Assembly: GCF_900009145.1 (NCBI RefSeq)
Contig: NZ_LN889815.1
Span: 1 to 50,532 of the forward strand
Source of the DNA: Planktothrix tepida PCC 9214
GTDB lineage: Bacteria; Cyanobacteriota; Cyanobacteriia; Cyanobacteriales; Microcoleaceae
Direction: 5' to 3'
Length of the DNA: 50,532 nucleotides
Each line of letters begins with the position of its first letter. The stretch's first letter is position 1. This document shows positions 10,670 through 38,947 of the stretch, piece after piece. Below the pieces are notes generated by a model. It did not search any database. It was not told the origin of the DNA and saw only the letters and a program-made list of their open reading frames with translations. The position numbers were made by a program, and so were the translations under genes.

Positions 10670-11209
10670 ATGACACGCCAAGTCGATCTTAACGAACTCC
10701 GACGCACGATGCTAGATAACCAAAGACGCGGAGAAATTCTCCCCACTAGCACAGCCAGAAAAATTTCTGTTGATCGTGACGGAAAAATTATCCTTGGGGA
10801 TACAGAGGGACGTATAACTTCTGAAGTGCAGCAAGGAATTTGGGCTGCAACGCTGCTAGAACGTGATCGCCAAATTGTTGCTCATAAGTTGCCCTCTAAT
10901 ACTCAAGAACTCTCCATCGGTGGAGTAACAGGTTGGGGCTACCGTATCGTTAGTGAGTTAGGCGATCCTTATATGCTATTCGCTTACAACGATGGCAGCT
11001 TATACCAAGTCTTAGTTGTTGCACCTGATCTCGTTGGTCTTTGTAACCCTCACGATGTACATCTGTTCAATGATGGTCGCATTTGCTTTGGTGATACTGG
11101 CGGACTTCCTACATTAGAACAAGCCTACGCCAAATCTGTAGTTTGGGCGACAGGCTTCAGCGTTTTCGCCCGCACGGGTCAGTTCCCTTTTTCTACCAAC
11201 AACCTTTAA
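10670..11209 (+). CDS. Prokaryotic E2-like (ubiquitin-conjugating-type) protein
   Basis: Encodes 179 residues; the ribosome site AGAGG lies 9 nt before the ATG. The second half has an E2-like order of elements: a strand pair YMLFAYNDGSLYQVLVVAPD (residues 101-120), then HDVHLFNDGRICFGDTGG, with Cys139 in GRIC placed as in E2 catalytic sites (HPN...G.IC). Helices follow (TLEQAYAKSVVWATGF). Prokaryotic E2 families of this kind sit beside JAB and E1 (ThiF) genes, as here: the next gene, 99 bp downstream, encodes JAB-E2-like-E1. Expected role: accept a ubiquitin-like modifier from the E1 on Cys139. No modifier gene is evident nearby. The E2 call rests on the motif and the neighbour. Confidence 0.7.
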   Translation: MTRQVDLNELRRTMLDNQRRGEILPTSTARKISVDRDGKIILGDTEGRITSEVQQGIWAATLLERDRQIVAHKLPSNTQELSIGGVTGWGYRIVSELGDPYMLFAYNDGSLYQVLVVAPDLVGLCNPHDVHLFNDGRICFGDTGGLPTLEQAYAKSVVWATGFSVFARTGQFPFSTNNL

Positions 11210-11238
11210 GAATTTGTAGCACCTCATGTTCTAAAAAG

Positions 11239-11267: not shown

Positions 11268-11308
11268 TTCTGGACTTACCTCTTTAACTGAAAGTAACTC
11301 ATCAAACC

Positions 11309-13219
11309 ATGTCAAACTTACTGTATATTTCCCAACAAGTCATTCGTGAAATTGAACAGGATATTGCTATCTATCCTCCTGAACGTGGGGGAGCATTACT
11401 AGGGCCAATTGGAAAACCGATTGTAACGCGCTTTCTTTTTGACGGGGAAGCCATTACTAGCTATACAAGTTACCGCCCTTCTCGAACTCTAAATCAACAG
11501 GTTAAGCAGGTCGAACTCTCAGAAAATCTGGAATTGAAAGGAATTATTCACTCTCATCCCAATGGGATGGATCGGCCATCAGGACAAGATGAGTACGAGT
11601 TAAAGGTAGGTCTTGAACTCAATCCCCACATGGCTTTTTACTTAGCACCGATAGTTACTACCCTACAATCTCATCAACATCTACGAGAACATGAATTAAG
11701 GGTAGGACGAGATGCAAAAATCTCCTTCTTCAGTGCTTACCGACAACAAGGCGGTAGCATTCGAGTCGAACCGATAGCTGTTCAAGAAATCAGCGCTATC
11801 GAGTTAGCCCAAATTGAGCAAAACCTAGCACCAGTAGCACTGCCATCATCATCCAAAAAGATATTATTACAACCTCACCTAGAGCGGATTTGTCAGCACT
11901 TCGGCAGCAATGTACCACCTGAAATCTTTATCACTGAAATTGAGGGAATCTCCATCCCCGTTGGTCGTGTCATCCTCAATGGTGGCTTAGAATTGCTTTT
12001 CCTCCTTAGTCAGTCTTACCCTGTGACACCGCCTATCTTGTGGGTAACACCGATGGGGGGAGACACTGAACAGGTAGAACTGCCTTGGTCATTAGTTACA
12101 CCTCCAGAAGAACGGTTGGTCAAGGCTATAACTAGCCTGATCACAGGTCATGGCCCCTACCAAAAAGTCTTCCGACCCTTGGGAAAGTCAGGTCTGACCA
12201 CCGACGCCAAAATCGCCGCTTTAGCTGGCTGGAGTGGTTACTATTCAGAGATTGATCCAAAACAAGCTGCGATAGAACTGCAACAAGGTTTGTTTGCGCG
12301 GAGTACAGGACTCCTCAGCCAACATATTAGTGAGAAGCGGGTATTGATTGCGGGAACAGGTTCGGTGGGTTCATACTTGGCTGAACAGTTGGTTCGCAGT
12401 GGGGTGGGAAAGTCAATACTAATTGACCCTGAAAAGGTGGAAACAGCAAATTTGTGTCGCACGAATTATGAGATCTCGGATATTGGACAGCCGAAGGTGA
12501 AGGCGTTGGGGCGACGGTTGCTCAATATTAACCCGTTGGTGGAGTTGACCTTAGAGGAAAAGAGCTTATCAGCGTATGAGGTAGCAGAGTTTGATGCTTT
12601 GGTACGGGAAGCAGATTTAATTGTGGCGACAACCGATGACCAAGCAGCCCAGCGCATTCTCAACCGTTTTGCTTATTTTCACGGTAAACCTGCGTTGTTT
12701 GTAGGATTATATAAGGGTGCAGAAGGTGGAGAAGTCATTTTTACAATTCCCAAGCGGACTCCCTGCTACCTGTGTGCTACTGCTAACCGCCATCAAGCTG
12801 AATTAGATTTAGGACGGGTAAGTGCGGATGGAGATTATGGAAGCAATGGTCGAGTGATGGGTGAAGTGGCGCTAGTAGCGGATATCCACCACGTTACCAG
12901 CGTTGCGGTGAAGATGGCGCTGTCGTTGTTGCTGCCAGAGGATGCACAGGTGAAGCTGAAGGGATTTTTGAATCCAGCAATTGAGGCGGGGTTTAATTAT
13001 CTGACGCTTTCAATGGTTCCAAATTACTGGTTTTATCCTGCGATTTTTGGGGATACGGCGGGACAGTATGCTTATCAAAGTGTGTGGTTGACCGCGCAGC
13101 ATCGGGAAGAGTGTCCGGTGTGCGGTGGTGTTCATCATCGGGTTGATCCGCGCACAATACCATTGCAGGAGTTACAGGCAGGTGATATTCGCGCTGCTTT
13201 AAGTCGCTCTCTCTCTTAA
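11309..13219 (+). CDS. JAB-E2-like-E1 (ThiF) fusion protein
   Basis: Encodes 636 residues with three domains. (1) JAB/JAMM metalloprotease, about 1-145: Glu25 and the exact metal motif H81-S-H83-x7-S91-x2-D94, so probably active. (2) E2/RWD-like fold, about 185-290: SYPVTPPILWVTP at 236-248 matches the E2 YPxxPP turn. No Cys follows where the E2 catalytic Cys should be, so this part is likely non-catalytic. (3) E1-type adenylation domain, about 340-610: the nucleotide loop GTGSVGS (349-355), IDPEKVETANLCRTNY, and a four-Cys zinc site (C486, C489, C602, C605). JAB would trim or remove a modifier; the E1 would adenylate it. Together with the E2-like neighbour it makes a compact ubiquitin-type pathway without a visible modifier. 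Confidence 0.85.
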   Translation: MSNLLYISQQVIREIEQDIAIYPPERGGALLGPIGKPIVTRFLFDGEAITSYTSYRPSRTLNQQVKQVELSENLELKGIIHSHPNGMDRPSGQDEYELKVGLELNPHMAFYLAPIVTTLQSHQHLREHELRVGRDAKISFFSAYRQQGGSIRVEPIAVQEISAIELAQIEQNLAPVALPSSSKKILLQPHLERICQHFGSNVPPEIFITEIEGISIPVGRVILNGGLELLFLLSQSYPVTPPILWVTPMGGDTEQVELPWSLVTPPEERLVKAITSLITGHGPYQKVFRPLGKSGLTTDAKIAALAGWSGYYSEIDPKQAAIELQQGLFARSTGLLSQHISEKRVLIAGTGSVGSYLAEQLVRSGVGKSILIDPEKVETANLCRTNYEISDIGQPKVKALGRRLLNINPLVELTLEEKSLSAYEVAEFDALVREADLIVATTDDQAAQRILNRFAYFHGKPALFVGLYKGAEGGEVIFTIPKRTPCYLCATANRHQAELDLGRVSADGDYGSNGRVMGEVALVADIHHVTSVAVKMALSLLLPEDAQVKLKGFLNPAIEAGFNYLTLSMVPNYWFYPAIFGDTAGQYAYQSVWLTAQHREECPVCGGVHHRVDPRTIPLQELQAGDIRAALSRSLS

Positions 13220-13247
13220 TAATAGTTGAAACGGTCAATTGCTCGAA

Positions 13248-13274: not shown

Positions 13275-13307
13275 GTTTGACATTACAAGCATCACTTCAT
13301 GTGAGTG

Positions 13308-13700: not shown

Positions 13701-14264
13701 ATGCTTAAGTGTCCTGTATGCAGTTCAGATATTACAACAGAAGAAGAAATGTGTCTCAATTGTGGTTATGAGCTAAAACCCCAGCCACTTATAATCGATG
13801 CACCACCTCCAGTTTCTCCGGTTCCTATCCCTGCCCTCGTTGAATTATCAACCGTGGAAACAACTTCTATTATACCTGAGCCACTTGAATTCTCTCCTAA
13901 CGACAAGATTCCTATAACAAGTGCGAACATCATTCTAAAACGTGGTGGGACTAAAACTACACAAATGTTTTCAATTGAAGGAGAAAGAGTAATTATTGGC
14001 CGTTTCGACCCTGATAGTGGCCCTGTTGATATAGATTTAGGCTGCCTACCGGAATCTGAAGCTGAATATATTTCGCGCCACCATGCCGAAATTCGACAGG
14101 ACGGGTCAGGAGAATACTTTATTAAAGATTTGAGTGCTAAAAACGGCACGTTTTTCCGTGCAAGTGGGCAATCCAAGTTTCAGCGCGTCATTGATGAACA
14201 GGTAATTCATGATGGAGACGAGATTGCACTAGGGAATGTCCAATTTGAGTTTCGTGTTGGATAG
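13701..14264 (+). CDS. Zinc ribbon-FHA phosphothreonine-reader protein
   Basis: Encodes 187 residues; ribosome site AGGAGG before the ATG. An N-terminal zinc ribbon (C4-x2-C7 and C18-x2-C21) is followed by a Pro-rich linker (30-65) and an FHA domain (about 75-187). The FHA signature is complete: Gly-Arg at 100-101, SRHHAEI at 125-131 and NGT at 148-150, so it should bind phosphothreonine peptides. The gene opens a set with a pseudokinase-PP2C and a vWA protein (35- and 3-bp gaps). Its likely ligands are targets of the kinases encoded downstream. The same type of zinc ribbon recurs on several kinases and CHAT proteins of this island. Confidence 0.88.
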   Translation: MLKCPVCSSDITTEEEMCLNCGYELKPQPLIIDAPPPVSPVPIPALVELSTVETTSIIPEPLEFSPNDKIPITSANIILKRGGTKTTQMFSIEGERVIIGRFDPDSGPVDIDLGCLPESEAEYISRHHAEIRQDGSGEYFIKDLSAKNGTFFRASGQSKFQRVIDEQVIHDGDEIALGNVQFEFRVG

Positions 14265-14299: not shown

Positions 14300-16027
14300 G
14301 TGTGTAATTTAGTTTTCTCGAACGAACAAGAATTGCCCTTAGTGCTAGATGATCAAGCTGAACGGACTTCTGACTCGGCACAAGGCATACCAACAGAGTT
14401 AGAAGAACTGATTGAACCTCTCTCAATGTCGCCTCTGCCAAAACCTTTAGTCGCTGATGCTGTGGTAACAGCACCTTGTGAGCAGTCATTTCGTATTGTT
14501 ATGTTACAGCGTACCGAGTCCCAAGTGAACCTTTACGAAGCTGTTAATCAAGACGAGCAAACTGTTTTGCTACGGGAAACGTTGAGTGAAACAGAAGCAG
14601 CAGCGCGATCGCACCACGAAGCAGAAGTTTTAAGGGGTTTGGACTGTGCCATGTTTCCTCAGCTTATGGGTTGCTTTGAAAGTGATCACAGAACCTTTGT
14701 TGTTACTGAATCTTTACCCCTAGATTCTACCCTCGCTGACGTTCTAGCAAGTGTAGAACCACAGCTGCCTGAAATTCTTTCCATACTGGCTCAAGTCACT
14801 TTTGCCCTCAGTCACCTGCACGCAAACGGTTGGGTAAACTTAGGTCTGCGACCCAGCCACATACTCATCCAACCCATAAAAATCCTTGATTGCTCTTACG
14901 CTACTCGCATCGGCGAGATGCCAACTCGTAATTTCTCCCACGCTGGTTACTCTCCACCCGAACTCAGTATGGAAGTGCCAGTCGATGCACGAGATGATAT
15001 TTATGCAGTGGGAGCAATGCTCTACCAAGCAGTGACTGGGCAAAAAATTCCTGAAACAGGCTTAGAGTTCAGCTTCCTACCACCTATTGCTGGCGCACGA
15101 CAGATTATTTCCCGTTGTCTCGGTAGCCGAGAATCGCGTTACGCACAGATGGAACATTTGCATAAAGATTTACTGCGTTTGAAGAACCAGCTCGAGCCAA
15201 AAGTTAGTTATTCCTTAGCCACTACAACTTCTATTGGGTTAGAACCAAGTCGCACCACTAATCAAGATACCTATGGGTATCTGAGTGGGCAACTGGTATC
15301 TGAGATAGAGGATCAAGCTTGGGCGATCATAACTATTGCTGATGGCATGGGAGGTATGGCAGCAGGAGAGGTTGCAAGTGCGGTAGCCGTTAAAGCGGTG
15401 TTAGCAGAAGCTGCTACAACATTTGCTTCCGCTCGTCAGATGACTGCTGACGAACAAACGGAACAGGTCAAACAGTGGGTTAGTACGGCCAATCAACGAG
15501 TCTGTGCAGCGATGGAAAAACACCAAGCACGCGGAGGTTGCACGCTACTTTGTGCTTGTTTAGTAAATCGATGCTTAACGATTGCTCATGTGGGGGACTG
15601 TCGTCTCTACTTGCTCCGGCAAAACGAAGTTAGGCTGCTTACCCGTGATCATTCCCTAGCGCAAGCGCAAGTCTTACAAAATCAAATTCAGATGGAGGAA
15701 GTGCGTCGCCATCCAGATCGCAACCAACTCACCCGTTCCTTGGGCGATCGCCAGCCCCTACCCGATTACTATATCGATACTCTCGAACAAACCACGGATC
15801 AAACGGTCATGGAGTTGCGCTCAGGAGATGTATTGCTGCTGTGCAGCGATGGCTTGTGGGAACCCGTGTTGGAAGCAGATATGCTCCAAGCAGTATGCAA
15901 TCTTACACCAGACTTAAAATCTACCGCTAATGAGTTACTGAAAATTGCTTTGCAGCGGGGTGCGCCAGATAACGCCACCGTTATTTTGTTGCGTCTTGAC
16001 GAAATTACTGTACCAAAGGAAGGATGA
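14300..16027 (+). CDS. Pseudokinase-PP2C phosphatase fusion
   Basis: Encodes 575 residues. Residues about 65-295 have the shape of a Ser/Thr kinase (YSPPELS...DDIYAVGAMLYQAVTG), but the lysine of VAIK is Arg, the HRD loop is NLGLRPSHIL (no Asp) and DFG is DCS, so it is a pseudokinase. Residues about 303-570 are a PP2C phosphatase with NQDTYG, ADGMGGMAAGE, HVGDCRLYLL, LLCSDGLWE and PDNAT, hence probably an active metal-dependent Ser/Thr phosphatase. The only in-frame conventional start is GTG at 14300. The codons just before it would read DWRCPVC, a zinc-ribbon knuckle, so the true N-terminus may be damaged or use an unusual start. The following vWA gene begins 3 bp after the stop. Confidence 0.87.
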   Translation: MCNLVFSNEQELPLVLDDQAERTSDSAQGIPTELEELIEPLSMSPLPKPLVADAVVTAPCEQSFRIVMLQRTESQVNLYEAVNQDEQTVLLRETLSETEAAARSHHEAEVLRGLDCAMFPQLMGCFESDHRTFVVTESLPLDSTLADVLASVEPQLPEILSILAQVTFALSHLHANGWVNLGLRPSHILIQPIKILDCSYATRIGEMPTRNFSHAGYSPPELSMEVPVDARDDIYAVGAMLYQAVTGQKIPETGLEFSFLPPIAGARQIISRCLGSRESRYAQMEHLHKDLLRLKNQLEPKVSYSLATTTSIGLEPSRTTNQDTYGYLSGQLVSEIEDQAWAIITIADGMGGMAAGEVASAVAVKAVLAEAATTFASARQMTADEQTEQVKQWVSTANQRVCAAMEKHQARGGCTLLCACLVNRCLTIAHVGDCRLYLLRQNEVRLLTRDHSLAQAQVLQNQIQMEEVRRHPDRNQLTRSLGDRQPLPDYYIDTLEQTTDQTVMELRSGDVLLLCSDGLWEPVLEADMLQAVCNLTPDLKSTANELLKIALQRGAPDNATVILLRLDEITVPKEG

Positions 16028-16030
16028 ACC

Positions 16031-17434
16031 ATGCTGAATGTCCTTGTTAAATCCCACCGTACCAGCCTCAAAGCTAATGCGACTGAGGTGCAAAAACTCT
16101 TCGTGATGCTCAAGCTAATCCCAAAAACCGAGGTAGCTAAAGCACGGCCCCCATTAGTTTTAGCTTTAGTGATGGACACCAGTAGCTCAATGCAGTTGTT
16201 TGCTGACCAGCAGAAAGCCGAGAATGAAATCAGTAGGAGAGGGCTACAACGGCAACAGCAAACGACTAGCGACGGAAAGTATGAAGTTGTTGACTTATCT
16301 CTGCCTAGCAAACTTGAACAGGCGATCGCATCTGCACACGCTCTGATTGACGACTCCCGGCTCCTACCCGAAGACAAGGTGACAGTCATTCATTTTGACG
16401 ATGATGCCAAGGCGATCTTACCTCTGACACGCTTATCAAGTAAGCAAGCAGCGCATACAGCTATTGATTCTCTACGGCAATACTCAGGCGCAACTCACAT
16501 GGGTAAGGGATTGGACTGTGCTAAACAGCAGTTATGCGATCTTCCAGGACAGGTTGCCAAGCGAGTGTTGTTGCTGACTGATGGGCAAACGTTTGATGAG
16601 TCAGAGTGTCGAGCAGTCGCACCCCAATTTACTGAGGCTAACACACCTATCATTGCGATCGGACTGGGTGATGAGTATAACGAAGAACTATTGCTGGAGT
16701 TAGCGCAAGTTACTCAAGGACGACCTTATCACCTACAAAAGATAGAGGAACTGGGGCAGATTCTCAATGAAGAAGTGGGGACTTCAGTACGAGAAGTGGT
16801 GACGAATCTGCAAGCTACAGTCTCTACCGTTAAAGGAGTGACTTTGGATACCATCACGCGGGTTTACCCCAGTCTCAGTGATGTAAATCTAACGGATTCG
16901 CAGCATCGGCTCGGCAACATTATTGCGGGAGATTACACGGTCTTTATTTTAGAATTCACGGTATCGGGAGTAGGACGACCACCAAGCCGAGTCCGAATTG
17001 CCCAATTAGGATTAGTAGGCGATGCACCTGGCTTAGGACGACGTGAAGAGTTTCCACCACAAGACTTATTTGTGGAATTTACCACAGATGAGAGAGCCAT
17101 CGCCGAAGTAGATCCCGAAGTGCAGGGCTACCTACAGCAAAAAAACGTAGATCGCATGGTTCAGGATGCTGTGCGAAGTGCCAAAGAAGATCCTAATCGA
17201 GCGCGACAGACGTTGCAAGTAGCAGTGAACATGACTAAACGATTGGGTAATTCTGCTGTGACTAAGATGCTGGAAAACACTTTGGACGAATTGAATAAAA
17301 CCGGAACAATTTCTCCTAATACGGCTAAAACAATTCGTGCAGGGGGTAGAACAAAGACTATTAAAACTCAGGGGGCGAAACAAATGGAGAGTGTGCCTTC
17401 GCAAGATGAAATTCGGCGATTGACAGGCGCATAA
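16031..17434 (+). CDS. vWA-domain protein with intact MIDAS
   Basis: Encodes 467 residues. A von Willebrand factor A domain spans about 40-240. The metal-binding MIDAS is intact: D49-x-S51-x-S53 in LVMDTSSSMQ, Thr in SGATHMGKG and Asp in LLLTDGQTF. The region after it (about 250-355) is beta-rich, and the C-terminus (about 370-467) is helical and basic. It follows the PP2C gene by 3 bp, so the two are almost certainly translated together. vWA proteins often act as metal-dependent scaffolds with ATPases, kinases or phosphatases. Here the likely partners are the FHA and PP2C proteins. No MoxR ATPase is encoded nearby. Confidence 0.87.
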   Translation: MLNVLVKSHRTSLKANATEVQKLFVMLKLIPKTEVAKARPPLVLALVMDTSSSMQLFADQQKAENEISRRGLQRQQQTTSDGKYEVVDLSLPSKLEQAIASAHALIDDSRLLPEDKVTVIHFDDDAKAILPLTRLSSKQAAHTAIDSLRQYSGATHMGKGLDCAKQQLCDLPGQVAKRVLLLTDGQTFDESECRAVAPQFTEANTPIIAIGLGDEYNEELLLELAQVTQGRPYHLQKIEELGQILNEEVGTSVREVVTNLQATVSTVKGVTLDTITRVYPSLSDVNLTDSQHRLGNIIAGDYTVFILEFTVSGVGRPPSRVRIAQLGLVGDAPGLGRREEFPPQDLFVEFTTDERAIAEVDPEVQGYLQQKNVDRMVQDAVRSAKEDPNRARQTLQVAVNMTKRLGNSAVTKMLENTLDELNKTGTISPNTAKTIRAGGRTKTIKTQGAKQMESVPSQDEIRRLTGA

Positions 17435-17606: not shown

Positions 17607-19805
17607 ATGTTTGAGAGGTTCAATGAAAAAGCTATTAAAGCTATCATCTTAGCCCAAGAAGAGGCTCGTCGCTTGGGACATAATTTTGTTGGTACGGAAC
17701 AAATTCTATTGGGGTTAGTAGCAGAAGGAACTGATATAGCTGCCAAAGCATTAAAATCTATGGGTGTAAATCTTAAAAATACCCGCTTAGAAGTAGAAAA
17801 AATTATTGGTAGGGGGTCAGGGTTTGTAACTTCAGAGATTCCTTTTACTCCTAGAGCTAAGAGAATTCTGGAATTTTCCTTGGAAGAGTCTCGCCAATTA
17901 GGACACAATTATATTGGGACAGAGCATCTTTTATTAGGATTAATTCGGGAAGAGGAAGGCGTAGCGGTTAGGGTACTGGAAAATTTGAAAGTTAATTTTT
18001 CAAGGATTCGCAAGCAAGTTCTCCTCATCTTAAATAGATCTGAAACTCCTGATACTTTTAATAAGCCCACTGAAGGAAGAGTATTTGAACATTTTACCGA
18101 AAAATCTATCAAAGCCTTTATGCTAGCCCAAGAAGAATCCCGCCGTATGGGGCATAACTTTGTTGGCACAGAACAAATTCTATTGGGTTTAATTGCTGAG
18201 GCGACTGGTATTGCAGCTAAAGTTCTTAGAGACAAGGGGATTAAGTTAAAAAATGTCCGCATTGAAGTTGAAAAAATTATTGGTCGAGGTTCAGGCTTTG
18301 TAGCAATAGAAATTCCTTTTACCCCACGAGCTAAACGAGTGTTAAAGTTATCGTTAGAAGAAGCGCAACAACTACAATGCTTCTCTATTGATACGGAACA
18401 TCTCTTATTAGGACTGCTTCAAGAAGGTGAGGGTGTAGGGGCTAGGGTGTTAGAAAACTTGGGGTTAAATCTCTCAAAATTACGCACTCAAATTATTGGC
18501 ACATTAGGTAAAACATTTCAAGCTTCTGATAGCAGTATCTCCTCTGTAGCTTTAACATCTGAATCCTATAAAAAAGTAGATGTTCCATGTCCTGTTTGTC
18601 ATTTTCAAAATTCAGCGAGCGCAACTTCCTGTGCCTCTTGCGGTAGTCCTTTAACCAGGAACAGTACAACACTTGATGCTCTGCCCCCTGGCTCAAAACT
18701 TTTGGCAGGAGCCTATACAGTTGGTAAGGTGTTAGGACAGGGAGGTTTTGGTATCACCTACTTAGGTAGCGATACACAGTTAAAAAGTCTAGTTGCGATT
18801 AAAGAGTTTTTCCCTCAAAACTGTCGTCGGCAAGGTAGTACACTAACTTTTGCAGGTACCTGGACGCAAGTTACTTTCCTTGATGCTAAACAGAGGTTTT
18901 TAGAGGAAGGAAGAACTTTAAGGCAATTTAGCCATCCTGGAATTGTGCGGGTATTTCATGCTTTTGAAGAAAACAATACTGTCTATTTAGTAATGGAGTA
19001 TCTACGTGGGAAGAATCTAGCAGCTTTACTAGAGGAAGGTAACGAAAGAATGAGTGAACTTGAAGCCGTTGGTTGCATTCAGAAAATCTGCAAAGCTCTA
19101 GAAGTTGTTCATCAAGCTAACTTTCTGCATCGAGATATTAAACCAGAAAACATAATCGTAACGGAAGACAGGCGGATCGTTTTAATCGATTTTGGTGCAG
19201 CCAAACAGTACATATCAGGAAAAACGCAGAAGCATTCAACAGTTATGACACCTGGGTATGCACCTTTAGAGCAATACGCACAGCAGGCGAAACGCGGAAC
19301 TTACACTGATATTTATGCTTTGGGAGCGACTTTATATCATTTGCTTACTGGTGAAATGCCAGTATCAGCGACAGATAGAGCAGTAGGAGTAGAGTTGCGA
19401 TCGCCGGAGCAACTAAATCCTAATGTTAGTCAACAAGTTGCACAAGCAGTCATGCAAGCGATGGCAATGAAAATCAGTGATCGCCCTCAATCTGTCGGTG
19501 AGTTTCTTAGCCTATTTTCTTCTGAGATTGATGATGTTTCTAATAGCTTAGAACAGTTGGATAACTTATTCCGTAATCTAGTTAGCCAGTATCATCCATT
19601 TGCCGAATATCTTGGGTTTAAAAAATCTGAAGAGGGATTCACCGTTAGCTATCGGGGGACAGGTGATGTGCAATATATACAGATCAACAAAGAAGGGAAT
19701 ATCATTGATGACACAACTATGGGTACAATCCGGTCTTTACGGATGTTTGTTATAGGTGCTGCACTATTAGGAGGGGTTAATCAACTTTGGAATAATTGGG
19801 AATGA
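17607..19805 (+). CDS. Tandem ClpC N-domain-zinc ribbon-Ser/Thr kinase fusion
   Basis: Encodes 732 residues. Two complete ClpC-type N-domains lie at about 1-143 and 158-302, each with two Clp_N repeats (GHNFVGTEQILLGL, GTEHLLLGL). The glutamates that in Bacillus ClpC bind phosphoarginine are kept (E31/E106 and E189/E264). A zinc ribbon follows (C328, C331, C342, C345), then a kinase (about 370-640) with VLGQGGFGITY, Lys399, HRDIKPEN (508-515), DFG (528-530) and TPGYAPLEQY: all active-site residues are present. A 90-residue tail ends in a hydrophobic segment (FVIGAALLGG). There is no AAA+ part, so it cannot unfold proteins itself. The ClpN part presumably recruits substrates or a Clp adaptor to the kinase. 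Confidence 0.9.
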   Translation: MFERFNEKAIKAIILAQEEARRLGHNFVGTEQILLGLVAEGTDIAAKALKSMGVNLKNTRLEVEKIIGRGSGFVTSEIPFTPRAKRILEFSLEESRQLGHNYIGTEHLLLGLIREEEGVAVRVLENLKVNFSRIRKQVLLILNRSETPDTFNKPTEGRVFEHFTEKSIKAFMLAQEESRRMGHNFVGTEQILLGLIAEATGIAAKVLRDKGIKLKNVRIEVEKIIGRGSGFVAIEIPFTPRAKRVLKLSLEEAQQLQCFSIDTEHLLLGLLQEGEGVGARVLENLGLNLSKLRTQIIGTLGKTFQASDSSISSVALTSESYKKVDVPCPVCHFQNSASATSCASCGSPLTRNSTTLDALPPGSKLLAGAYTVGKVLGQGGFGITYLGSDTQLKSLVAIKEFFPQNCRRQGSTLTFAGTWTQVTFLDAKQRFLEEGRTLRQFSHPGIVRVFHAFEENNTVYLVMEYLRGKNLAALLEEGNERMSELEAVGCIQKICKALEVVHQANFLHRDIKPENIIVTEDRRIVLIDFGAAKQYISGKTQKHSTVMTPGYAPLEQYAQQAKRGTYTDIYALGATLYHLLTGEMPVSATDRAVGVELRSPEQLNPNVSQQVAQAVMQAMAMKISDRPQSVGEFLSLFSSEIDDVSNSLEQLDNLFRNLVSQYHPFAEYLGFKKSEEGFTVSYRGTGDVQYIQINKEGNIIDDTTMGTIRSLRMFVIGAALLGGVNQLWNNWE

Positions 19806-19883
19806 GGTTAAACTTATCGATAAAATCTTGAGTAATTCTGCATAATTTAATTGCAAAATAATATTAAGTTTAATTTAAGATTT

Positions 19884-22115: not shown

Positions 22116-23183
22116 ATGCTTTGTCCTATTTGTGGCTATCAAAATCAACCAACTGCAAAGTTCTGCATCGTCTGTGGTGCATCATTAACCGATGTAAAAC
22201 TTGAAGTCCTACCTTTTGATACTCAACTGTTAGGTGGTGAATACATCGTCTATAAAGTGCTAGGACAGGGAGGCTTTGGCATTACTTACTTTGGCAATGA
22301 AGTGTTGCTAAAACGTCCTATTGCCATCAAAGAATTCTTTCCCGCAGGCTGCCATCGACAGGGTAGCACCGTAATTTCAGCAGGTAACTGGACAGTAGCA
22401 AGTTACAACCAAGCGAAACAACGATTTTTGCAGGAAGGGCAAACTTTAGCGCAATTTAATCACCCAGGAATTGTGCGAGTGTTCAAATATTTTGAGGACA
22501 ATAATACAGCTTACATAGTCATGGAATATTTGCAGGGCAAAAATTTAGCTGATCTACTAGAGGAGCGTGGCGAACCCCTGAAAGAGTGGGAAGCTGTGAG
22601 TTACGTCGAGAAGGTCAGCAAGGCACTAGAAGTTATTCATCAAGCCAACTTTTTACACCTAGATATCAAGCCAGACAACGTAATGGTAACAACCGATAGA
22701 CGAGTGGTGCTGGTGGACTTTGGTGCTGCCAAAGAGTATCTAGCTGGTAAAACGCAGTTGCTTTCGAGAACCGTCACACCAGGATATGCTCCTTTGGAGC
22801 AGTATGCAGAGCGAGCTAAACAGGAACCTTATATGGATATTTACGCTTTGGCAGCAACTCTGTATCACCTGCTAACTGGGCAAATGCCTGTCTCAGCAGT
22901 AGACCGAGCCGTGGGGGTAGAATTGCCCGATGTGCGACAGCTAAACCCTAAAGTTAGGCCATTTGTGGCAGAGGCAGTGATGCAAGGGATGGCAATGGAA
23001 GTTAAGCGACGACCTCAGTCAGTGGGAGAATTCCTCAACCTGCTGCATGGTCGGAAATCGAGTCCCTCCAACCCAGAGGCAAGAATGGAGTTTTACAAGC
23101 CAGCAAAAGACCCTTGGGGAGCATTTGGTGAACCTGACGAAACTTCCACAGACTCATCGGAAAAATCTAGCAACTGGTTTTAA
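22116..23183 (+). CDS. Zinc ribbon-Ser/Thr kinase
   Basis: Encodes 355 residues. A zinc ribbon (C3, C6, C17, C20) precedes a kinase domain (about 42-310) with VLGQGGFGITY, Lys72, HLDIKPDN (Asp183), VDFGAAK (201-206) and TPGYAPLEQY. It should be active; His-Leu-Asp replaces His-Arg-Asp, so activation-loop control may be relaxed. The C-terminal 40 residues look disordered and carry DPWGAFGEPDE and the final residues SSNWF. A Trp-Phe end recurs in the two X-family proteins downstream. The stop is 12 bp before GTPase A, which has a strong AAGGAG site, so the two are probably co-translated. Confidence 0.9.
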   Translation: MLCPICGYQNQPTAKFCIVCGASLTDVKLEVLPFDTQLLGGEYIVYKVLGQGGFGITYFGNEVLLKRPIAIKEFFPAGCHRQGSTVISAGNWTVASYNQAKQRFLQEGQTLAQFNHPGIVRVFKYFEDNNTAYIVMEYLQGKNLADLLEERGEPLKEWEAVSYVEKVSKALEVIHQANFLHLDIKPDNVMVTTDRRVVLVDFGAAKEYLAGKTQLLSRTVTPGYAPLEQYAERAKQEPYMDIYALAATLYHLLTGQMPVSAVDRAVGVELPDVRQLNPKVRPFVAEAVMQGMAMEVKRRPQSVGEFLNLLHGRKSSPSNPEARMEFYKPAKDPWGAFGEPDETSTDSSEKSSNWF

Positions 23184-31600: not shown

Positions 31601-32625
31601 GCGACCTGGGAGCAATTTCTAAAGTTGAGGCTCCTGTAACAAACAAATCGGTTTACCCAGAGTTACAGCAGCTACATGAAATCCTCATTAAACCTATTGC
31701 TGAATCTTTACCAACTGACCCTAACGCTCACGTCATTTTTATACCTCAAGGCTCTCTATTCCTGGTTCCATTTCCTGCTCTCCAAAATCCTCATACTAAT
31801 CAATTCTTGGTAGAACAGCATACCATCGTAACATCTCCCTCAATTCAGGTACTAAGTTTAACTCATCAGCCTATAAATTTAATTCAGAAATTGCCCTTAA
31901 AAGCTGAGGATATCCTAGTAGTAGGAAACCCCATAATGCCGACAGTTCCCTTTAGCAGTAGCCCGTTGAAGCCGTTAGCAGGAGCAGAAGGAGAAGCTAA
32001 AGCGATCGCATCTCTTCTCAAGACTCAACCTATTACTGGCGCAGCGGCAACTAAGGTAGATATTGTGCAGAAGATGTCCAAATCAAAACTGATTCATCTG
32101 GCTACTCATGGTTTATTAGATGATATTAAACAGTTGGGTGTACCGGGTGCGATCGCTTTAGCTCCTTCCGAAGGGGATAATGGTTTCCTTACTACTGGAG
32201 AAATCTTAGAATTGAAGCTAAATGCTTTTCTTATTGTCCTAAGTTGCTGTCACACAGGTCAGGGTAAAATTACAGGCGATGGTGTTATTGGATTATCCCG
32301 TTCTTTCATGACTGCTGGTGTTCCTAATTTAATTGTCTCTCTTTGGTCGATCAATGACCGATCTAGTGCTTTGTTAATGATAAAGTTCTATGAAATCTTC
32401 TTACAAAAGGGAACGTCTGTAGCCATTGCTCTCAGCCAAGCTCAACGCTGGTTGCTAAATGCTACAACTGATGAGTTACTAAAATCTATGATTACTCACT
32501 TTTGTTTAGATGTAACTCATTTGACTCCTACTCAGAAAGCTGACTTAGAGGAAGGGTTAGAAAAATGGCGATCGCCTTATTATTGGGCTGCCTTCTCTAC
32601 CATTGGGCAGGGAGCAATGGCTTAA
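28684..32625 (+). CDS. Zinc ribbon-kinase-TPR-CHAT multidomain protein
   Basis: Encodes 1313 residues; ribosome site AAAAGGAG. The order is: zinc ribbon (C6, C9, C20, C23); kinase-like domain (about 48-320); TPR repeats (about 345-850, with units such as ALGNLGISYHCISDYTKAIE); and CHAT (about 950-1313), with His1142 (LATHGL) and Cys1188/Cys1189 (LSCCHTG), ending PYYWAAFSTIGQG. The kinase keeps Lys79 and Asp189 (HLDISPEN) but has EFG instead of DFG and Ser instead of Lys in the catalytic loop, so activity is doubtful. This single chain joins a kinase-like sensor, a TPR scaffold and a protease, and closes the plus-strand array. A convergent CHAT gene follows 62 bp away. Confidence 0.9.
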   Translation: MSSWVCRFCLATNRNSATFCCACGVPVKPKPLKATNLFLPLGTQLQQANFSVGKVLGQGNFTITYMGSDNLLRRPVVIKEFFPQGCDRHILTVQPSNSITSANYQSAKSKFLDEACVISQIQHSGIVKIYTYFEENNTGYIVTEFLRGKTLLKLVAERGFLLEKEALGYIQQVGKALAVAHQANLLHLDISPENIILTDDGRVVLIEFGAAKEYATQLMRTYSVMLLTSEYAALEQYAPYAKRGYYTDIYALSATLYYLLTGKVPISAIERAKGVELIPPHRLNPDVNRGVSDAVMQGMGILVEGHFKSVRDFLNALKEVKPDSSTPTIIVKTEPSNQNAKSEKDKAYQLLKQGEKKFQSSQFEAALQSWEQALTIYRSIQQREKEAVTINAVGIAYHALGNHSKAIQYMQESLAIARETNNLREAAMALYNLSVVYRDIRDYAKAINHSQQGWVIARKINYHQLEAQSLGNLGIIYYFQGDYTQAIEHYLQLLILARNLKECQWEAAVLSGLGITYNSIGDYAKGIEYHYQALVLARERRDRLGEGSALGNLGISYHCISDYTKAIEYQEQSLKIAKEIDDHQVEGNSLGNLASVYSELGDYTRAIDFYEQQLAIARSTQDYRAAEEALGNLGKTHFVLGNYTKANEYAQQAMAVALQIQDYRGVATALNNLGGIAFYEQGGAVKAIEFFHQALIIAQKLPDRRAEQGALGNIGSAYFTLSNYTAAIDYQQQSLAIAQEIQDHEGVAASLASLGVTYSALGDYAKAIDYCQQALKITQEIQHSPRLGEALHNLGTIQFFYGNLEAAARKLREGIQVWEFLRAGLGSNDTYKVSLFERQSNTYGTLQQVLIAQNQPNAALEIAERSRARAFVELLARRLSPHPATQISISPPTIEQIQEIAKVQNATLVEYSIVDVDKLFIWVIKPTGEIAFRQIEIKPLSQQQKQAQGTSTLALENLVFKARKSIGVDEGGRDLGAISKVEAPVTNKSVYPELQQLHEILIKPIAESLPTDPNAHVIFIPQGSLFLVPFPALQNPHTNQFLVEQHTIVTSPSIQVLSLTHQPINLIQKLPLKAEDILVVGNPIMPTVPFSSSPLKPLAGAEGEAKAIASLLKTQPITGAAATKVDIVQKMSKSKLIHLATHGLLDDIKQLGVPGAIALAPSEGDNGFLTTGEILELKLNAFLIVLSCCHTGQGKITGDGVIGLSRSFMTAGVPNLIVSLWSINDRSSALLMIKFYEIFLQKGTSVAIALSQAQRWLLNATTDELLKSMITHFCLDVTHLTPTQKADLEEGLEKWRSPYYWAAFSTIGQGAMA

Positions 32626-32687: not shown

Positions 32688-35081
32688 TTACATCGTTTCT
32701 TCTAACTTACCATTGAGAATTACCTTGGCATTGGGGTCAGCATAAACGCTGTAAGCTAGCCATGTTAAATCATCGCAACGGTTAGCATTTTGACGGGTAT
32801 CAATACGACTTTGATGTACAGCTTCGGAGACGGTTTTTCCTTGTAATAGGTAGCTATAAAATCTTTGAGCAAAGAATAATGCTGATTTGTCATCTACAGC
32901 CCAACAAGGCGCTAAAAATAAGCCGGCTCCACTATGAATTAGTCGATTAACCCAACCTCCCAAATGAGTTAATCCCCAACCCTGTCGCCCGCTAGAGCAA
33001 GCATTAAATACAAATCCCGGACGGTTACGGTTGATATGTCTTACTATGTTTTGGCCAATGATTTCATCTGGTGTTAGTAAATCTCCATATTGAAGTAAAA
33101 TGCTTGAGTTAGCATCAGGATTATCAAAGCAGAACGTACCGTGAGTAACTACATGAAACCAGTTATATTGGCTTGACTCCAGGATCTTTCGTACTGCTGG
33201 CAATGTAGGGAGTGTTGGGCTTAGATCCAAGATGTTATTGTTTGATAATAATTCTTTAAGAAAATTTCGTTCTTCCTCAGCAGCAGGTAAATCCAAGTCT
33301 GTTGGCACTATACAGGTTAATGAGTTCAAAGACAATTGTATTGGTGCACGTTGATTAACTCTATCTTGTTCATCACGGCGCAACCAGCGTGTTAAACACA
33401 TGGTCATACACCAAGGATCGCTGTCCTCCCAATCCCCTCGTTCATCATCAGTAGGCCATACTAACTCCCAAGGAATGTATGGATCATCAGAAACAATCAA
33501 CAGTTTTTTTCCATGCCAACTTAACCGTTGATTGGCATAAATTTTTTGGAGTTTCGAGGGAATCAGTTCTCGCCAAAGGTTGTGGCCAAAATTTTTAATT
33601 TCCCTATTTATATCAGAGGGACTTTTTATCAATATTTCTGGAGTTTCCAACTTACGACTCGGGGCTGTTATTTTATTAAGTTTTTCTAAAAAATGATGCC
33701 AGTATTGAGCGTATTTTTTTAATTCTTTATTTAATGAAGAGTAAAATTTTTCTCTTTTATTTTGTCCTTGAAAAAGTTCAAAAGAAAGCTGTAAAGGATT
33801 TTGATTTTCATCGTATTTAACGACAAGAGTATAGTCTGGTTGCGGACTATTTATTTCCAGTAAGCTTATCGGTACTGATTCTTGAACTTCTTGAGCTTCA
33901 ACTTTGTAATCTGTAATTTCAACTTCTATCTGGCTACAGGCTAACCAACGGGAATTTTGGAAAAAATCAAACTCAATTTTAGTGCGCTCCACTACTTTAT
34001 CAGGCTTTAACAGAAAAACAATAGGTTCGCTATCAGCATTAGGCTTAACCAACCTCTCCTGAGCGGGATCATTGAGGGAGATAAAGTCGAGAGCCTCAAC
34101 ACGCACAAGCACAGGCTGTCCTTCATATACCGAAAAATTTCCTATGGAAGCACTGCTATATTTTGGCGGTTGCACTGTCAGCCAGACTACTACAGAAATC
34201 TCTGGTGTATCTACCCAAACGCGACGCGGGCAAGAAATTTTTGTATATCGGACTACGTTACCACCTGTATCTGATACTTTTGTTACAGGAGTAGATGGAG
34301 GAAAATTTCTTCCACCTCTTGTATCTGATACCTCAACTTTTTGGCTCACCAAATTGTTCCGAGGTGTGTCGAGAATATTTTCACTAGGTCTTGAGATTTC
34401 TTCTAGTGGTGATGAAGTAGCAAGACTTGCCCCTATTAGAACACTTTCAAACATTTCATTGTAGAGTACCTCAGAATCAGGAATCCTTCTGAAACTGTGT
34501 TCCTGATGTTCACCTTTAGTTCTGTTCAATTCCCCACCTGGGAGAGTTTTACGAATATCAATCAGATATTTTGTGAGGGAGTGTTTTTCGCACCAATTTA
34601 AAATCGTGTCAGATATTAGATCGGGAGTACCTAAATTTGGATGAATTTGTTGCCAAAGGTTTAATAATTCACTCTGAGGCAACCAAGTAGCCTGATCAAC
34701 TAACAGCTTGAAAAAAGCATAAATAGTTCTTTGGGCAGGTGATAACCATAAATTCTCAGCTTGTAGATCTAATGAGGGATGAGTAATTAAAGACTTGACT
34801 AAAGCATAAATATTTTCTTCACCTTCTCCTGAACTTGACTGAATTTCTAACTTATGGAGAAAAGCATGAATATTTTCTTCAGCAGTTGGCATCAGATTTT
34901 TTTGATTACCCATTTCTTCTGGTTGAGAGACTAAGTTAACAACTGGTGTTGGTGTATGACTCAAATTAGTGATTCGCTCAGAGGCGGACGGACTTTCTAA
35001 AGATGCGATTTCTGTGCCGCAGACAGGACACACCTCATCTTGTTCTGCAATAGATTCGCCACAGACTAAACAATTAATCAT
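32688..35081 (-). CDS. Zinc ribbon-CHAT protease with central helical and beta domains
   Basis: Encodes 797 residues. A zinc ribbon (CLVCGES ... CPVCGTE) opens the protein. A helical region at about 70-185 could be an effector-associated adaptor domain. Then come a Ser/Thr-rich linker and a beta-rich middle. The CHAT domain occupies about 520-797, with His647 (VTHGTF) and Cys695 (FNACSSG). The zinc ribbon is of the same kind as those on the kinases and FHA protein across the island, which hints at a common partner. The gene lies 80 bp downstream of a larger CHAT gene on the same strand and converges on the kinase-TPR-CHAT gene. Confidence 0.85.
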   Translation of the reverse strand: MINCLVCGESIAEQDEVCPVCGTEIASLESPSASERITNLSHTPTPVVNLVSQPEEMGNQKNLMPTAEENIHAFLHKLEIQSSSGEGEENIYALVKSLITHPSLDLQAENLWLSPAQRTIYAFFKLLVDQATWLPQSELLNLWQQIHPNLGTPDLISDTILNWCEKHSLTKYLIDIRKTLPGGELNRTKGEHQEHSFRRIPDSEVLYNEMFESVLIGASLATSSPLEEISRPSENILDTPRNNLVSQKVEVSDTRGGRNFPPSTPVTKVSDTGGNVVRYTKISCPRRVWVDTPEISVVVWLTVQPPKYSSASIGNFSVYEGQPVLVRVEALDFISLNDPAQERLVKPNADSEPIVFLLKPDKVVERTKIEFDFFQNSRWLACSQIEVEITDYKVEAQEVQESVPISLLEINSPQPDYTLVVKYDENQNPLQLSFELFQGQNKREKFYSSLNKELKKYAQYWHHFLEKLNKITAPSRKLETPEILIKSPSDINREIKNFGHNLWRELIPSKLQKIYANQRLSWHGKKLLIVSDDPYIPWELVWPTDDERGDWEDSDPWCMTMCLTRWLRRDEQDRVNQRAPIQLSLNSLTCIVPTDLDLPAAEEERNFLKELLSNNNILDLSPTLPTLPAVRKILESSQYNWFHVVTHGTFCFDNPDANSSILLQYGDLLTPDEIIGQNIVRHINRNRPGFVFNACSSGRQGWGLTHLGGWVNRLIHSGAGLFLAPCWAVDDKSALFFAQRFYSYLLQGKTVSEAVHQSRIDTRQNANRCDDLTWLAYSVYADPNAKVILNGKLEETM

Positions 35082-35161: not shown

Positions 35162-38100
35162 CTACTGCCCTATGGCACAAAAAGAAGCCCAATAATAGGG
35201 AGAAGCGAAAGGGAAATCTAAGGGGTTAATTATCTCAAACCATTCCTCTAACTCAACTTTTTGAGTGGCAGTTAAATCTAAGCTTCGAGACCACTCTTTC
35301 AGTTCTTGACTCGTAATATTTCGTAGCCATATTTGTGCATCTCTGAGAGATTTTGCCACATCTAGCTGATGTTGCAGATAATTTTGGTAAAATTTAATCA
35401 TTAAGAAAGCAGTAGGCTTGTCATCTACTTTCCACAGACTACTAACTACACTGGGACTACCTGCATATAAAAATCCACTGGGTAAACTGATATATTCATC
35501 ACTGACGTTTTTGAAGTCCGTTACGCCAGTTTCACACCCACTGAGGATGACAAGACGACATTGACTTAAATCCATAGCAAAAACTTCTCCTAATGCAAGT
35601 TTTGTATCCGCTAAAATAAGAGATGATTTTAGAGGGTCATCAAAATCAAAAGTAGCGTGGCCTGAAAAATGAAAGCAATTTGCTAAACGCAAGTCTTTTC
35701 CTTCTGCTGCCTGATAAAATGCTGTTTTAGTTGCTTTTTGCTTCACTAAAGTAGTGGAATTTTGAAAACATTGTTTGATAATTTTAACTTCCATATCTGC
35801 ATAATCCAAATCAGAGGTAGGGTTTTGGATCGCAAATAATTGATTGAAGCGATCGCGTTCTTGATTTTGGGTAAGTTGCAAGATCTGACAGCTAGGAGCA
35901 TAGCGCACACCCAATGTAAAACGATCCAGAAGAGAATAACCATTTTTTAGCGGAAGGGCATGGAGCGGTAAGATGTGCAAAAATCGGTGGGGAATTAGAA
36001 TTAGCTGATTGCAAGTATTGGGTATCTGAGAAATGATATCATCGATATGTAGAATTCCAGCTAGCTGGCGTAAGTACATAGGCAAGTTAGTCCGCCACTG
36101 ATCTCTTTGCTGAGAGTAAGCATTGAAGTATTTGTTAAAACAGAAGTCAAATAACTCTTTGACATTTCCCAAAGGTTCTGGTACGAGGAGATCTGAACTT
36201 TCGGATGTAATAATGAATGTATAGATAGTCTCATCAGTAACATAGAATTCAATGATAGCAGTATGGTCATTGGGTAGCAGTTTCCGCATCTGCTTCCAGC
36301 TAATCGTTTCTACGCGCTGAGACAGACTAAAAGAAGGATCTCTGGGTTTGATTTGAGAATTAATCAATTCATCAAGTTTTTGTTGTAAATTCTCTAATTG
36401 GGTGCGCTCTGTAATGCGACTTGATGGTGTAGCCACAAAACCTTGATTGTTTCCATCAAAACTTATGCCTCCGGTCAGATCGTCTGGACTGGCAATATTA
36501 ATTCGTCGCTGTACAGTAGCAATTTTCTGGCGGAGTTGCTTCAGCTCATGCAGTACATATTCGGGAATATCGCCTTTAGGCAAAAGATTGCGAGTAGCCA
36601 TTAACTCAACCAGGTTACGAGCCTTACTGCGCTCAACGTATTCAATAGCTTGAGTGTAGTCATGCTGCTGTATACAAACAGCCACCATACGTTGATAAAA
36701 CTGGTTCCATTGTTCAGCCAATTTTTGCTTGTCTGCATCCGTTCCCGAACCTTTGACTATTTCATCTCGCAAAGATTCTACTGTTTCAATAGCACTTCCA
36801 TAAGCAACTTTAGCATTGTATAGTTGTCCATCTGCTTGATATGCCAAACCGAGTAAAGCTTGAGTTATTGCGTGTTCTTGTGGAAAAGTTGAGCGTTTAT
36901 ATATATTTAAAGAATCTAAAAAGCAATTAATTGCTGCGGCTAAATCTCCTTCTTGATTTCGCATTCCATAAACAATCCCTAAATTAATTTTCATTTTTGC
37001 CCATTCAGAAGGATTGGCTTGACGATTGTGTATATCCAAAGCCTGTAATAAGCAATCAATTGCTTGTAATAAATTTTTTGAAGTCGGCTCATAGATACTA
37101 AGCTCGCGGTAAACAACCCCCAAATTATTTTTAGTAGAAACCCATTGTTGAGGAAAATTTTCAGGATTGTACGCTTCTGAAGCAGCTGAGAAGTAACGAA
37201 TAGCCATAGACAAATTATCTTCTTTATTTCCTCTGAATCGTTCATAATAAGCACAGCCCAAAATAAATAGAGTTGCTCCTCGTTGTTCTAGAAAGTTAGC
37301 TTCACGGGTAAAAACATTGGCAGCAACTTCGCAACCAGTAATTGCAATTTCTATATTGCTGGCGCGATCGCCCTTATCAAAACTAAGAATCAAGCTACTG
37401 AAAGTTCCAATAACCTCTGCTAATTCTTGAGCTAGTTCTGGTTTAACTCCATCTGCCATTACCTCTGGGCTTGTTGGTAAAATTGCTGTGGCAAAGCTCC
37501 GTAAAACCTCAGAAAAATTTTCATCCAGTTTGTCTAAATTATTTTCTAGCAGTGGGTACAATATTCGCGTTTCTCCCTGGCTTTGTTTAGTTGTATCTAA
37601 AACCTCATTTACAAAAGCAAAATACTCTTGAAAATTCGCAGCAAGTGACTGATTTCGCATTGCTGCAAAAAAAAGGGATTTAATCATTTTGCTCGAGACT
37701 CTAGAATAATCTTTTATCCCTAGCTCTGCTAAAAATTCTATCCAATTTATTATCTGTTCCCTTGCTTGGAACCAAGCAGCATCAATACCAGCAGGAAGGA
37801 TGGAAGCGAAAGATCCTAGAAATTTAGCAGCGTTTTGATTACCTGTTTTTGCCAGATTATCAGCTACCCGTTCCATCTGATTTGCTAATCCCTTGTCAAA
37901 CAGATCAGGTCTGACTATAATAATATTAAAAAATACATCAACTACTGCATCAAAAGCTTTTTCCACGTCACTGGAGAAATCAACCAGCGATTTAATCAAC
38001 TTTTCATAAGCTTTTTGTCGTTCCTCTCTTTCTTGGATAAACTGTTGGTAGATTTCTAGTCGTCCTGCTTCTGATTCTGAAATTGACAGTGCTGAAGTAT

Positions 38101-38947
38101 CTGTGTTGGGCTGCTGTTGACTAGCATTAGCTAACTCTTGCATTTGATGAGATGCTTGATTCAGATTGGCTTGAATCTTAGTTGATTGCTGTGGGAACCG
38201 TTCTAAGGTATAAACTTGTAAAGCCGAGCGAAAACATTCAATTGCTTGCTGCAAATTCTCAGTCTGATTTCCTGAAGTGTAATTAAGATAAGTCAATCCG
38301 AGATGATTTTGTACCACAGCCCATTGTATAGGATGGTTCTCATAGGTATAGATTTGTAAAGTACTCTTAAAATACTGAATAGCTTCTTGCAAATTTTCGG
38401 ATGGAATTCCTTGGATGCGATCACGATAAGCAAGCCCTAAATCAGTTTTAATCCTTGCCCATTGCTCGGAAAAATTTTCTTTGGTATAAACAGATAAAGC
38501 ATACTGGAAACAACGGATGGCTTCTTCCAAGTTATCAATTCGCTTTCCCTGCACTCGATAAAGATAAATTTGACCCCTATTGTGTTCTGTTGCAGCCCAA
38601 ATCTCAGGATTATTAACGAAGGTGTAGACACCGAGCACAATTTTATACCCAGCCAGAGCAATTTCCAACCTTCTACTTCTGTCTCCTTGAGGAAATAGTC
38701 GCATCAAATTACTTAGAGCATTTATAGTATTAGCAATCTTCTCTCTGCCTATTAAATCTAATTGAGGTAAAGTAGCAGTAGCCCAGTTTAATAGAACTTG
38801 AGGTAAGGTATCATCCAACTTATTAAGATTTGCTTCGAGGAATGGATAAACAACTTCAGGATTAGCATTGCTGTCGGAGACAACCTCAAATAGCTTATGC
38901 AGAAAATTATTAGTTTCAAAAGAGTTGGGAGAAATAAAATTATTCAT
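35162..38947 (-). CDS. Large TPR-CHAT protease with an internal duplication
   Basis: Encodes 1261 residues. The CHAT domain is C-terminal (about 850-1261) with His1097 (FSGHATF) and Cys1138 (ILSGCETG), ending PYYWASFCAIG. Upstream are two similar modules at about 10-250 and 435-700. Each starts with a helical unit (FLHKLFEVVSDSNANPEVVY, FVNEVLDTTKQSQGETRILY), then YPxLExNLxKLDExxxxVL, then TPR-like repeats (NLGVVYREL, DLGLAYRDR). This points to an internal duplication. Between them is a helical segment of about 165 residues. It is probably a TPR-sensing caspase-like protease and probably shares a transcript with the 797-residue CHAT gene 80 bp downstream. Confidence 0.88.
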   Translation of the reverse strand: MNNFISPNSFETNNFLHKLFEVVSDSNANPEVVYPFLEANLNKLDDTLPQVLLNWATATLPQLDLIGREKIANTINALSNLMRLFPQGDRSRRLEIALAGYKIVLGVYTFVNNPEIWAATEHNRGQIYLYRVQGKRIDNLEEAIRCFQYALSVYTKENFSEQWARIKTDLGLAYRDRIQGIPSENLQEAIQYFKSTLQIYTYENHPIQWAVVQNHLGLTYLNYTSGNQTENLQQAIECFRSALQVYTLERFPQQSTKIQANLNQASHQMQELANASQQQPNTDTSALSISESEAGRLEIYQQFIQEREERQKAYEKLIKSLVDFSSDVEKAFDAVVDVFFNIIIVRPDLFDKGLANQMERVADNLAKTGNQNAAKFLGSFASILPAGIDAAWFQAREQIINWIEFLAELGIKDYSRVSSKMIKSLFFAAMRNQSLAANFQEYFAFVNEVLDTTKQSQGETRILYPLLENNLDKLDENFSEVLRSFATAILPTSPEVMADGVKPELAQELAEVIGTFSSLILSFDKGDRASNIEIAITGCEVAANVFTREANFLEQRGATLFILGCAYYERFRGNKEDNLSMAIRYFSAASEAYNPENFPQQWVSTKNNLGVVYRELSIYEPTSKNLLQAIDCLLQALDIHNRQANPSEWAKMKINLGIVYGMRNQEGDLAAAINCFLDSLNIYKRSTFPQEHAITQALLGLAYQADGQLYNAKVAYGSAIETVESLRDEIVKGSGTDADKQKLAEQWNQFYQRMVAVCIQQHDYTQAIEYVERSKARNLVELMATRNLLPKGDIPEYVLHELKQLRQKIATVQRRINIASPDDLTGGISFDGNNQGFVATPSSRITERTQLENLQQKLDELINSQIKPRDPSFSLSQRVETISWKQMRKLLPNDHTAIIEFYVTDETIYTFIITSESSDLLVPEPLGNVKELFDFCFNKYFNAYSQQRDQWRTNLPMYLRQLAGILHIDDIISQIPNTCNQLILIPHRFLHILPLHALPLKNGYSLLDRFTLGVRYAPSCQILQLTQNQERDRFNQLFAIQNPTSDLDYADMEVKIIKQCFQNSTTLVKQKATKTAFYQAAEGKDLRLANCFHFSGHATFDFDDPLKSSLILADTKLALGEVFAMDLSQCRLVILSGCETGVTDFKNVSDEYISLPSGFLYAGSPSVVSSLWKVDDKPTAFLMIKFYQNYLQHQLDVAKSLRDAQIWLRNITSQELKEWSRSLDLTATQKVELEEWFEIINPLDFPFASPYYWASFCAIGQ

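Follow-up and report, generated by a model that had tools for sequence, protein, structure and literature searches.

Does the 28-kb gene run at positions 10,670 to 38,947 of a Planktothrix tepida PCC 9214 contig, which joins ubiquitin-type, kinase, phosphatase, GTPase and CHAT protease genes, encode one system, or is a smaller unit embedded in it? The stretch of DNA analyzed here (the window; 50,532 nucleotides) is part of a 350-kb contig in a genome of 6.8 Mb. An initial annotation made from the letters alone had considered a gated protease-execution system plausible and listed two X proteins, here X1 and X2, among its genes. Judged from sequence and gene order, the GTPases and X proteins, in many loci together with a zinc-ribbon kinase, form a genuine, recurrent system that represents a new DO-GTPase subtype, and in the window this GTPase-X(-kinase) set is joined by CHAT proteases and by two modules that are also found without it.

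With an X profile (E ≤ 0.001), X was detected in 39 of 388 genomes of the order. GTPase B (E ≤ 1e-25) was detected in 40, including all 39 X genomes; the match in the fortieth is a fragment within a 161-amino-acid open frame. Neither occurs in any of the other 9 genomes assigned to the same genus as P. tepida. Two overlapping phylum-wide draws (386 genomes with a single X sequence and 367 with the profile) gave matches in only five genomes, P. tepida included, all of the same order, and a scan of the GTDB genome collection with one peptide pattern, which has limited reach, gave 16 confirmed loci, all titled cyanobacteria. In these searches, the subtype was found in the cyanobacterial phylum only. 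In 40 further loci that were annotated, X and GTPase B are both present in 37 and are adjacent on one strand in 36; the exception (L094) has an extra open reading frame (ORF) between them. The 8-base overlap of GTPase B and X found in the window is shared by 25 of the 37 relatives. The GTPase/X order is not due to chance, because it recurs in other genomes. Named records in which X is annotated as hypothetical include Anabaena sp. 90 pANA01, Calothrix PCC 6303 pCAL6303.02 and a Geminocystis NIES-3708 plasmid.

Three architectures are observed. The expanded form, GTPaseA-X-GTPaseA-GTPaseB-X, occurs in L012, L014, L020 and L090 and is split across two contigs in L091/L092, with shorter forms in L087, L093 and L095. 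In the third (L013, L084 and L089), X-GTPaseB has AAA, HSP70, radical SAM or coiled-coil genes as companions; genes of the first three kinds are also neighbors of the sets in L012, L014 and L020. The surroundings of X-GTPaseB in L013, L014, L084 and L089, a different context, include a tandem AAA protein, an HSP70-like protein, a radical SAM protein and a coiled-coil protein with a zinc ribbon. The third form further includes an X-X-GTPaseB order, in L066 and L074. On pANA01 (L190:1452-19552), a CHAT-STAND-TPR gene lies upstream of a helix-turn-helix (HTH)-HSP70-X-GTPaseA-GTPaseB-X set; a C39 peptidase gene and a pair of dynamin genes come next, all on the same strand.

The minimal architecture, zinc-ribbon kinase-GTPaseB-X, accounts for the 22 loci with the kinase, all of one family (f11). 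FHA proteins are binding partners of TagF; the window set has an FHA gene, and none was matched in these operons. No recognized effector or mobility gene stands alongside the minimal operon, which looks like housekeeping. This favors an alternative in which the locus regulates cell division, differentiation or a surface structure instead of serving defense, with CHAT proteins acting as regulators. A precedent would be HetF of Anabaena, which is a CHAT protein. HetF is reported to be a divisome component required for heterocyst initiation (PMC8406250). The patchy distribution outside that family, the plasmid location and the STAND-CHAT and dynamin neighbors speak against this alternative, which we regard as unlikely.

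All four GTPase domains pass the Pfam DO-GTPase1/2 cutoff of 27 bits (A1, 53.7; A2, 50.8; B, 31.3; CHAT-GTPase, 27.4). DO-GTPases are characterized by a conserved Walker B glutamate; here the G3 motif reads W-x-D-Y-x-G without a Glu at that place, and an EQ pair follows approximately 10 residues further in most of 21 aligned rows. The coordinates of the window features are collected in Table 1.

Table 1. Features of the window, with the evidence for each assignment.
Feature	Coordinates	Strand	Evidence
E2-like protein, candidate catalytic Cys139 in HLFNDGRIC	10670..11209	+	Motif and context
JAB (HSHP-x6-S-x2-D)-E2-like middle (by eye)-ThiF/E1 fusion	11309..13219	+	Pfam Prok-JAB 3.4e-9, ThiF 5.7e-33
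Zinc ribbon-FHA	13701..14264	+	Pfam
Pseudokinase-PP2C	14300..16027	+	Pfam; kinase motifs absent, PP2C motifs present
vWA protein, DTSSS metal site	16031..17434	+	Pfam, motif
4 x Clp_N-zinc ribbon-Ser/Thr kinase, catalytic motifs intact	17607..19805	+	Pfam, motifs
CHAT-GTPase B fusion; GTPase part ~21141-22073, 62% identical to GTPase B	19851..22076	+	Pfam, alignment; His and Cys motifs
Zinc ribbon kinase, end ...SSNWF	22116..23183	+	Pfam, motifs
GTPase A1 (DO-GTPase type)	23196..24083	+	Pfam DO-GTPase2 2.9e-14
X1: modeled longin/TagF-like domain 1-244, low-confidence (disordered) linker, tail ...DSEWF	24137..25309	+	Model, alignment
GTPase A2, tail ...DPFDAFN	25387..26403	+	Pfam DO-GTPase1 1.9e-13
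GTPase B: predicted Arf/EF-Tu-like fold and C-terminal helical part, no tail tag	26423..27394	+	Pfam DO-GTPase2 2.1e-7; model, fold comparison
X2, tail ...SQDWF; ATG overlaps GTPase B by 8 bases	27387..28661	+	ORF listing, alignment
Zinc ribbon-kinase (EFG for DFG)-TPR-CHAT	28684..32625	+	Pfam, motifs
Zinc ribbon-CHAT	32688..35081	-	Pfam; His/Cys motifs
TPR-CHAT	35162..38947	-	Pfam; His/Cys motifs
Tyrosine integrase, right edge	39242..40189	-	Pfam scan

X1 and X2 are 43% identical over their full length. They match no known family in Pfam (E 0.1), NCBIfam or PADLOC (both E 0.01). The predicted fold of X resembles those of GTPase regulators, and a Foldseek search with the model gave zero rows at E ≤ 0.001. 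X may be a regulator of its GTPase partner. On sequence grounds, X was rejected as a member of GAP1, TagF or any other known family, since no match is common to its members. Scattered matches to unrelated families occur in 1 to 2 of 20 alignment members (best E 0.0015) and in 1 to 2 of 43 members of a second set (best E 0.006, a match of one member to Avs1b), and these single-member matches are taken as chance. A PARP2-like profile match (E 0.0012) spans the domain end and the linker, and with the domain alone it weakens to E 0.018; it was set aside. TagF_N (PF09867) and the NCBIfam TagF model have no match at the X genes of P. tepida at E 10 and are not among the families listed for X. Pfam, which includes GAP1 models, gave no GAP1, GASH or FNIII match in the 20 window proteins scanned at E 0.1, and none among the best 25 of 32 families when 20 X proteins were searched at E 10.

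The kinases and X proteins often share a C-terminal Trp-Phe (WF). The ending is present in 22 of 22 system kinases, which are related and hence not independent, in 26 of 46 X proteins, in 1 of 14 GTPase A and in 0 of 38 GTPase B proteins; none of 382 unassigned neighbor ORFs has it, and 4 have Trp in the last two positions. In the minimal operons, WF is invariant in 24 X proteins and 22 kinases, and the preceding ten residues are 22% and 14% identical, respectively. It is found in 0 of 21 rows of non-system kinase relatives, among which 6 rows are truncated where the locus ends and several genes appear twice. On pANA01 and its near-copy L087, WF terminates the HSP70, GTPase A and both X proteins. 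Different endings seem to be shared within other systems, namely W-x-L or WR in L012 and L020 and DPF in L014, and the X proteins of L013, L066, L074, L084, L089 and L093 to L095 have no such ending. A WF-stop DNA pattern was compared with its reversed form in two genomes and gave, forward/reverse among the matches listed, 103/114 versus 95/108 and 119/115 versus 140/119; this absence of an excess does not favor further WF-tagged proteins genome-wide. The tag may have a docking role. The zinc-ribbon kinase itself has intact motifs, with HLD in place of HRD; its Lys motif escaped the pattern and was found by eye.

By motif search, each of the four CHAT proteins has the catalytic-type His and Cys of the domain, the Cys of the kinase-TPR-CHAT protein (LSCCHTG) having been found by eye after it escaped the pattern. 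The CHAT output proposed by the initial annotation is backed by the CHAT-GTPase B fusion, which has no match among PDB sequences, and by the CHAT-STAND-TPR gene of pANA01, whose CHAT belongs to the same family as that of the fusion (48.6% identity over 381 amino acids). When neighborhoods were compared across genomes, the GTPase/X(-kinase) sets recurred, and a CHAT gene beside X did not: CHAT-like matches occur in 2 of 40 X loci, neither adjoining X, and most X-locus stretches lack a CHAT gene. CHAT is therefore one output among others, or absent.

From 10670 to 32625, 14 genes stand in a row on the plus strand; their gaps measure 3 to 172 bases, with a single larger one of 481, and the last two CHAT genes and the integrase follow on the minus strand. 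The named ORFs lie where the initial annotation had placed them, and its domain labels other than E2 are backed by Pfam (JAB, ThiF, FHA, PP2C, vWA, Clp_N, kinases, four DO-GTPase-type domains and CHATs). The tight spacing it had reported is likewise real; of the several overlaps it had described, one exists, that of GTPase B and X2, provided that X2 starts at ATG 27387. The GC content is 0.36 to 0.46 along the window, with no clear island step; a transposase-like ORF lies at one edge and the integrase at the other. Further to the right (41548-44692) are a ParA-like protein and an Eco57I-type methyltransferase.

These edges, together with three such clusters on the same contig, would fit an island that is a pile-up of unrelated defense and regulatory modules, in which only the GTPase-X-kinase set is a system and E2/JAB-E1, FHA-PP2C-vWA and CHAT are separate. 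Full-length JAB-E1 (68 to 70% identity) occurs in 9 other genomes of the 388, all without X, and in 8 of the 9 a CHAT gene of the CHAT-GTPase B family lies in the same stretch (4 to 20 kb; BLAST), the ninth contig being 4 kb; for comparison, a CHAT match occurs in 1 of 8 stretches with the FHA set and 2 of 40 X loci. P. tepida (G000) is the only genome with full-length JAB-E1 and X; G559 has X with JAB-E1 fragments, and the other 38 X genomes have no full-length JAB-E1. A second E2/JAB-E1 copy in P. tepida (L098:5110-13716) is flanked by CHAT-CHASE2 and CHAT-trypsin fusions, which belong to one CHAT family whose C-terminal partners are exchangeable. In L134, L135 and L137, MoxR-type ATPase-like and vWA partner-like genes (by eye) lie downstream of E2/JAB-E1 and a CHAT gene.

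The FHA-PP2C-kinase set, too, was retrieved from 8 other genomes, on stretches without X or GTPase B and with vWA in 7 of the 8 (L151 begins at a contig end); in three of these genomes (G559, G320 and G588), X lies on another contig. The independent occurrence of the JAB-E1 and FHA-PP2C-kinase sets weighs against the whole, and the 28-kb combination is not supported as one system, although kinase-GTPaseB-X and GTPaseA-X-GTPaseA-GTPaseB-X recur. A pile-up has a real chance of being correct, somewhat short of even. It accounts less well for the CHAT-GTPase B fusion, for CHAT recurring near X on pANA01, for 14 same-strand genes with mostly short gaps, and for the second FHA-PP2C-vWA-kinase set of P. 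tepida, on the same contig (C59:70.5-77 kb), which is accompanied by three DO-GTPases on the same strand. The longer C59 stretch (70.5-91.5 kb; L140, L099) holds, on one strand, kinases, pseudokinase-PP2C, FHA, vWA, a 705-amino-acid protein, three DO-GTPases and a conjugation-coupling-type ATPase, with no X.

Since E1, JAB and a candidate E2 head the gene run, a ubiquitin-like conjugation defense could instead be central, with GTPases and CHAT proteins accessory; PMC7159879 describes a combination of ubiquitin-like (Ubl) conjugation and caspases. The E2 label is retained because H131-x4-G-x2-C139 is invariant in 11 orthologue rows and the gene is paired with JAB-E1; motif and context thus stand, and a match to an E2 model does not (none in Pfam, NCBIfam or PADLOC, in Pfam to E 10 for the 11 orthologues, or by PDB profile), and the same is true of the inner E2-like part of the fusion. 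No Ubl was recognized among the scanned window proteins, small ORFs being listed for 13150-13760 only, and this, together with the 38 other X genomes that lack full-length JAB-E1, makes such a system highly improbable.

A GTPase-X switch, linked to a kinase and wired in the window to CHAT proteases, is our best explanation of the whole, held with moderate confidence. The conserved set, the tags and the fusion are read directly from the sequences, and we infer binding, catalysis, regulation, a trigger and an outcome as follows. GTPase B would bind X, and the zinc-ribbon Ser/Thr kinase would phosphorylate or recruit GTPase B; in larger versions, duplication would have given A- and B-type GTPases and a pair of X proteins. 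X would act through its longin/TagF-like domain as a GTPase-activating protein (GAP)-like or guanine nucleotide exchange factor (GEF)-like regulator or as a reader of the nucleotide state. The tethered aromatic tag would dock the kinase, X and other partners on a common hub; GTPase B, which lacks the tag and occurs in every version, is the leading candidate for it. The switch would reach the CHAT caspase-like proteases through the CHAT-GTPase B fusion and the kinase-TPR-CHAT protein, with further control by the kinase/PP2C/FHA/vWA module and the E2/JAB-E1 module, a companion of CHAT proteins elsewhere. A trigger would alter phosphorylation or the GTP state, the complex would rearrange, and CHAT would cleave cell proteins, leading to growth stop or cell death. 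Such a GTPase-partner pair joined to caspase-like proteases may serve as a switch for a defense or self-destruct response, and defense would be its presumed outcome. More tentatively, and less likely than not, a longin/TagF-type protein could be a dedicated DO-GTPase regulator, an aromatic barcode (WF, WxL or DPF) on kinase, regulator, A-type GTPase and HSP70 could dock on one hub, and the outputs could be swappable (CHAT here, STAND-CHAT and dynamins on pANA01, AAA/HSP70/radical SAM elsewhere). The common tag offers a simple handle for client finding and pull-downs, and the fusion opens GTP-gated proteolysis to direct testing.

Searches of Creative Commons-licensed PMC papers gave no entry recognizable as a description of X, the tag or this combination. 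Bacterial E1/E2/JAB systems share a JAB with the window, and its E1 domain matches PADLOC E1-E2 models; here, in contrast, no Ubl was recognized, the E2 is a candidate, and JAB, an E2-like part and E1 are in one chain. The type VI secretion threonine-phosphorylation pathway with TagF, as outlined by Lin et al. 2018 (PMC5995506), has, like the window, a kinase, a PP2C-type phosphatase and an FHA protein, and its TagF may resemble the modeled fold of X, whereas no secretion genes are among the scanned window proteins and the constant partner of X is a GTPase. In a by-eye mapping, TagF G8-K9, D15 and D81-x3-R85 are placed like X G10-R11, D16 and D89-x3-R93. The longin/roadblock/DENN small-GTPase regulators covered in PMC3521125 may be similar to the fold predicted for X and likewise have a GTPase partner, whereas the PDB matches are eukaryotic and no sequence similarity to X was found. 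If X is a longin-type regulator, it would be a bacterial counterpart of folliculin/GATOR/DENN logic with a testable link to TagF. The closest relatives are the DO-GTPase conflict systems of Kaur et al. 2020 (PMC7159879), whose sections on these systems do not mention E2/JAB-E1, a CHAT-GTPase fusion or a common WF tag. According to those sections, caspase- and trypsin-superfamily peptidases are among the GAP1-N1 effectors, DO-GTPases are paired as in the window, and one theme includes HSP70 and another a zinc-ribbon kinase, PP2C and vWA, as here; the constant partner there is GAP1 with a GASH or FNIII protein. The same source describes DO-GTPase systems as nearly absent from cyanobacteria, in which we find a subtype with X in the place of GAP1.
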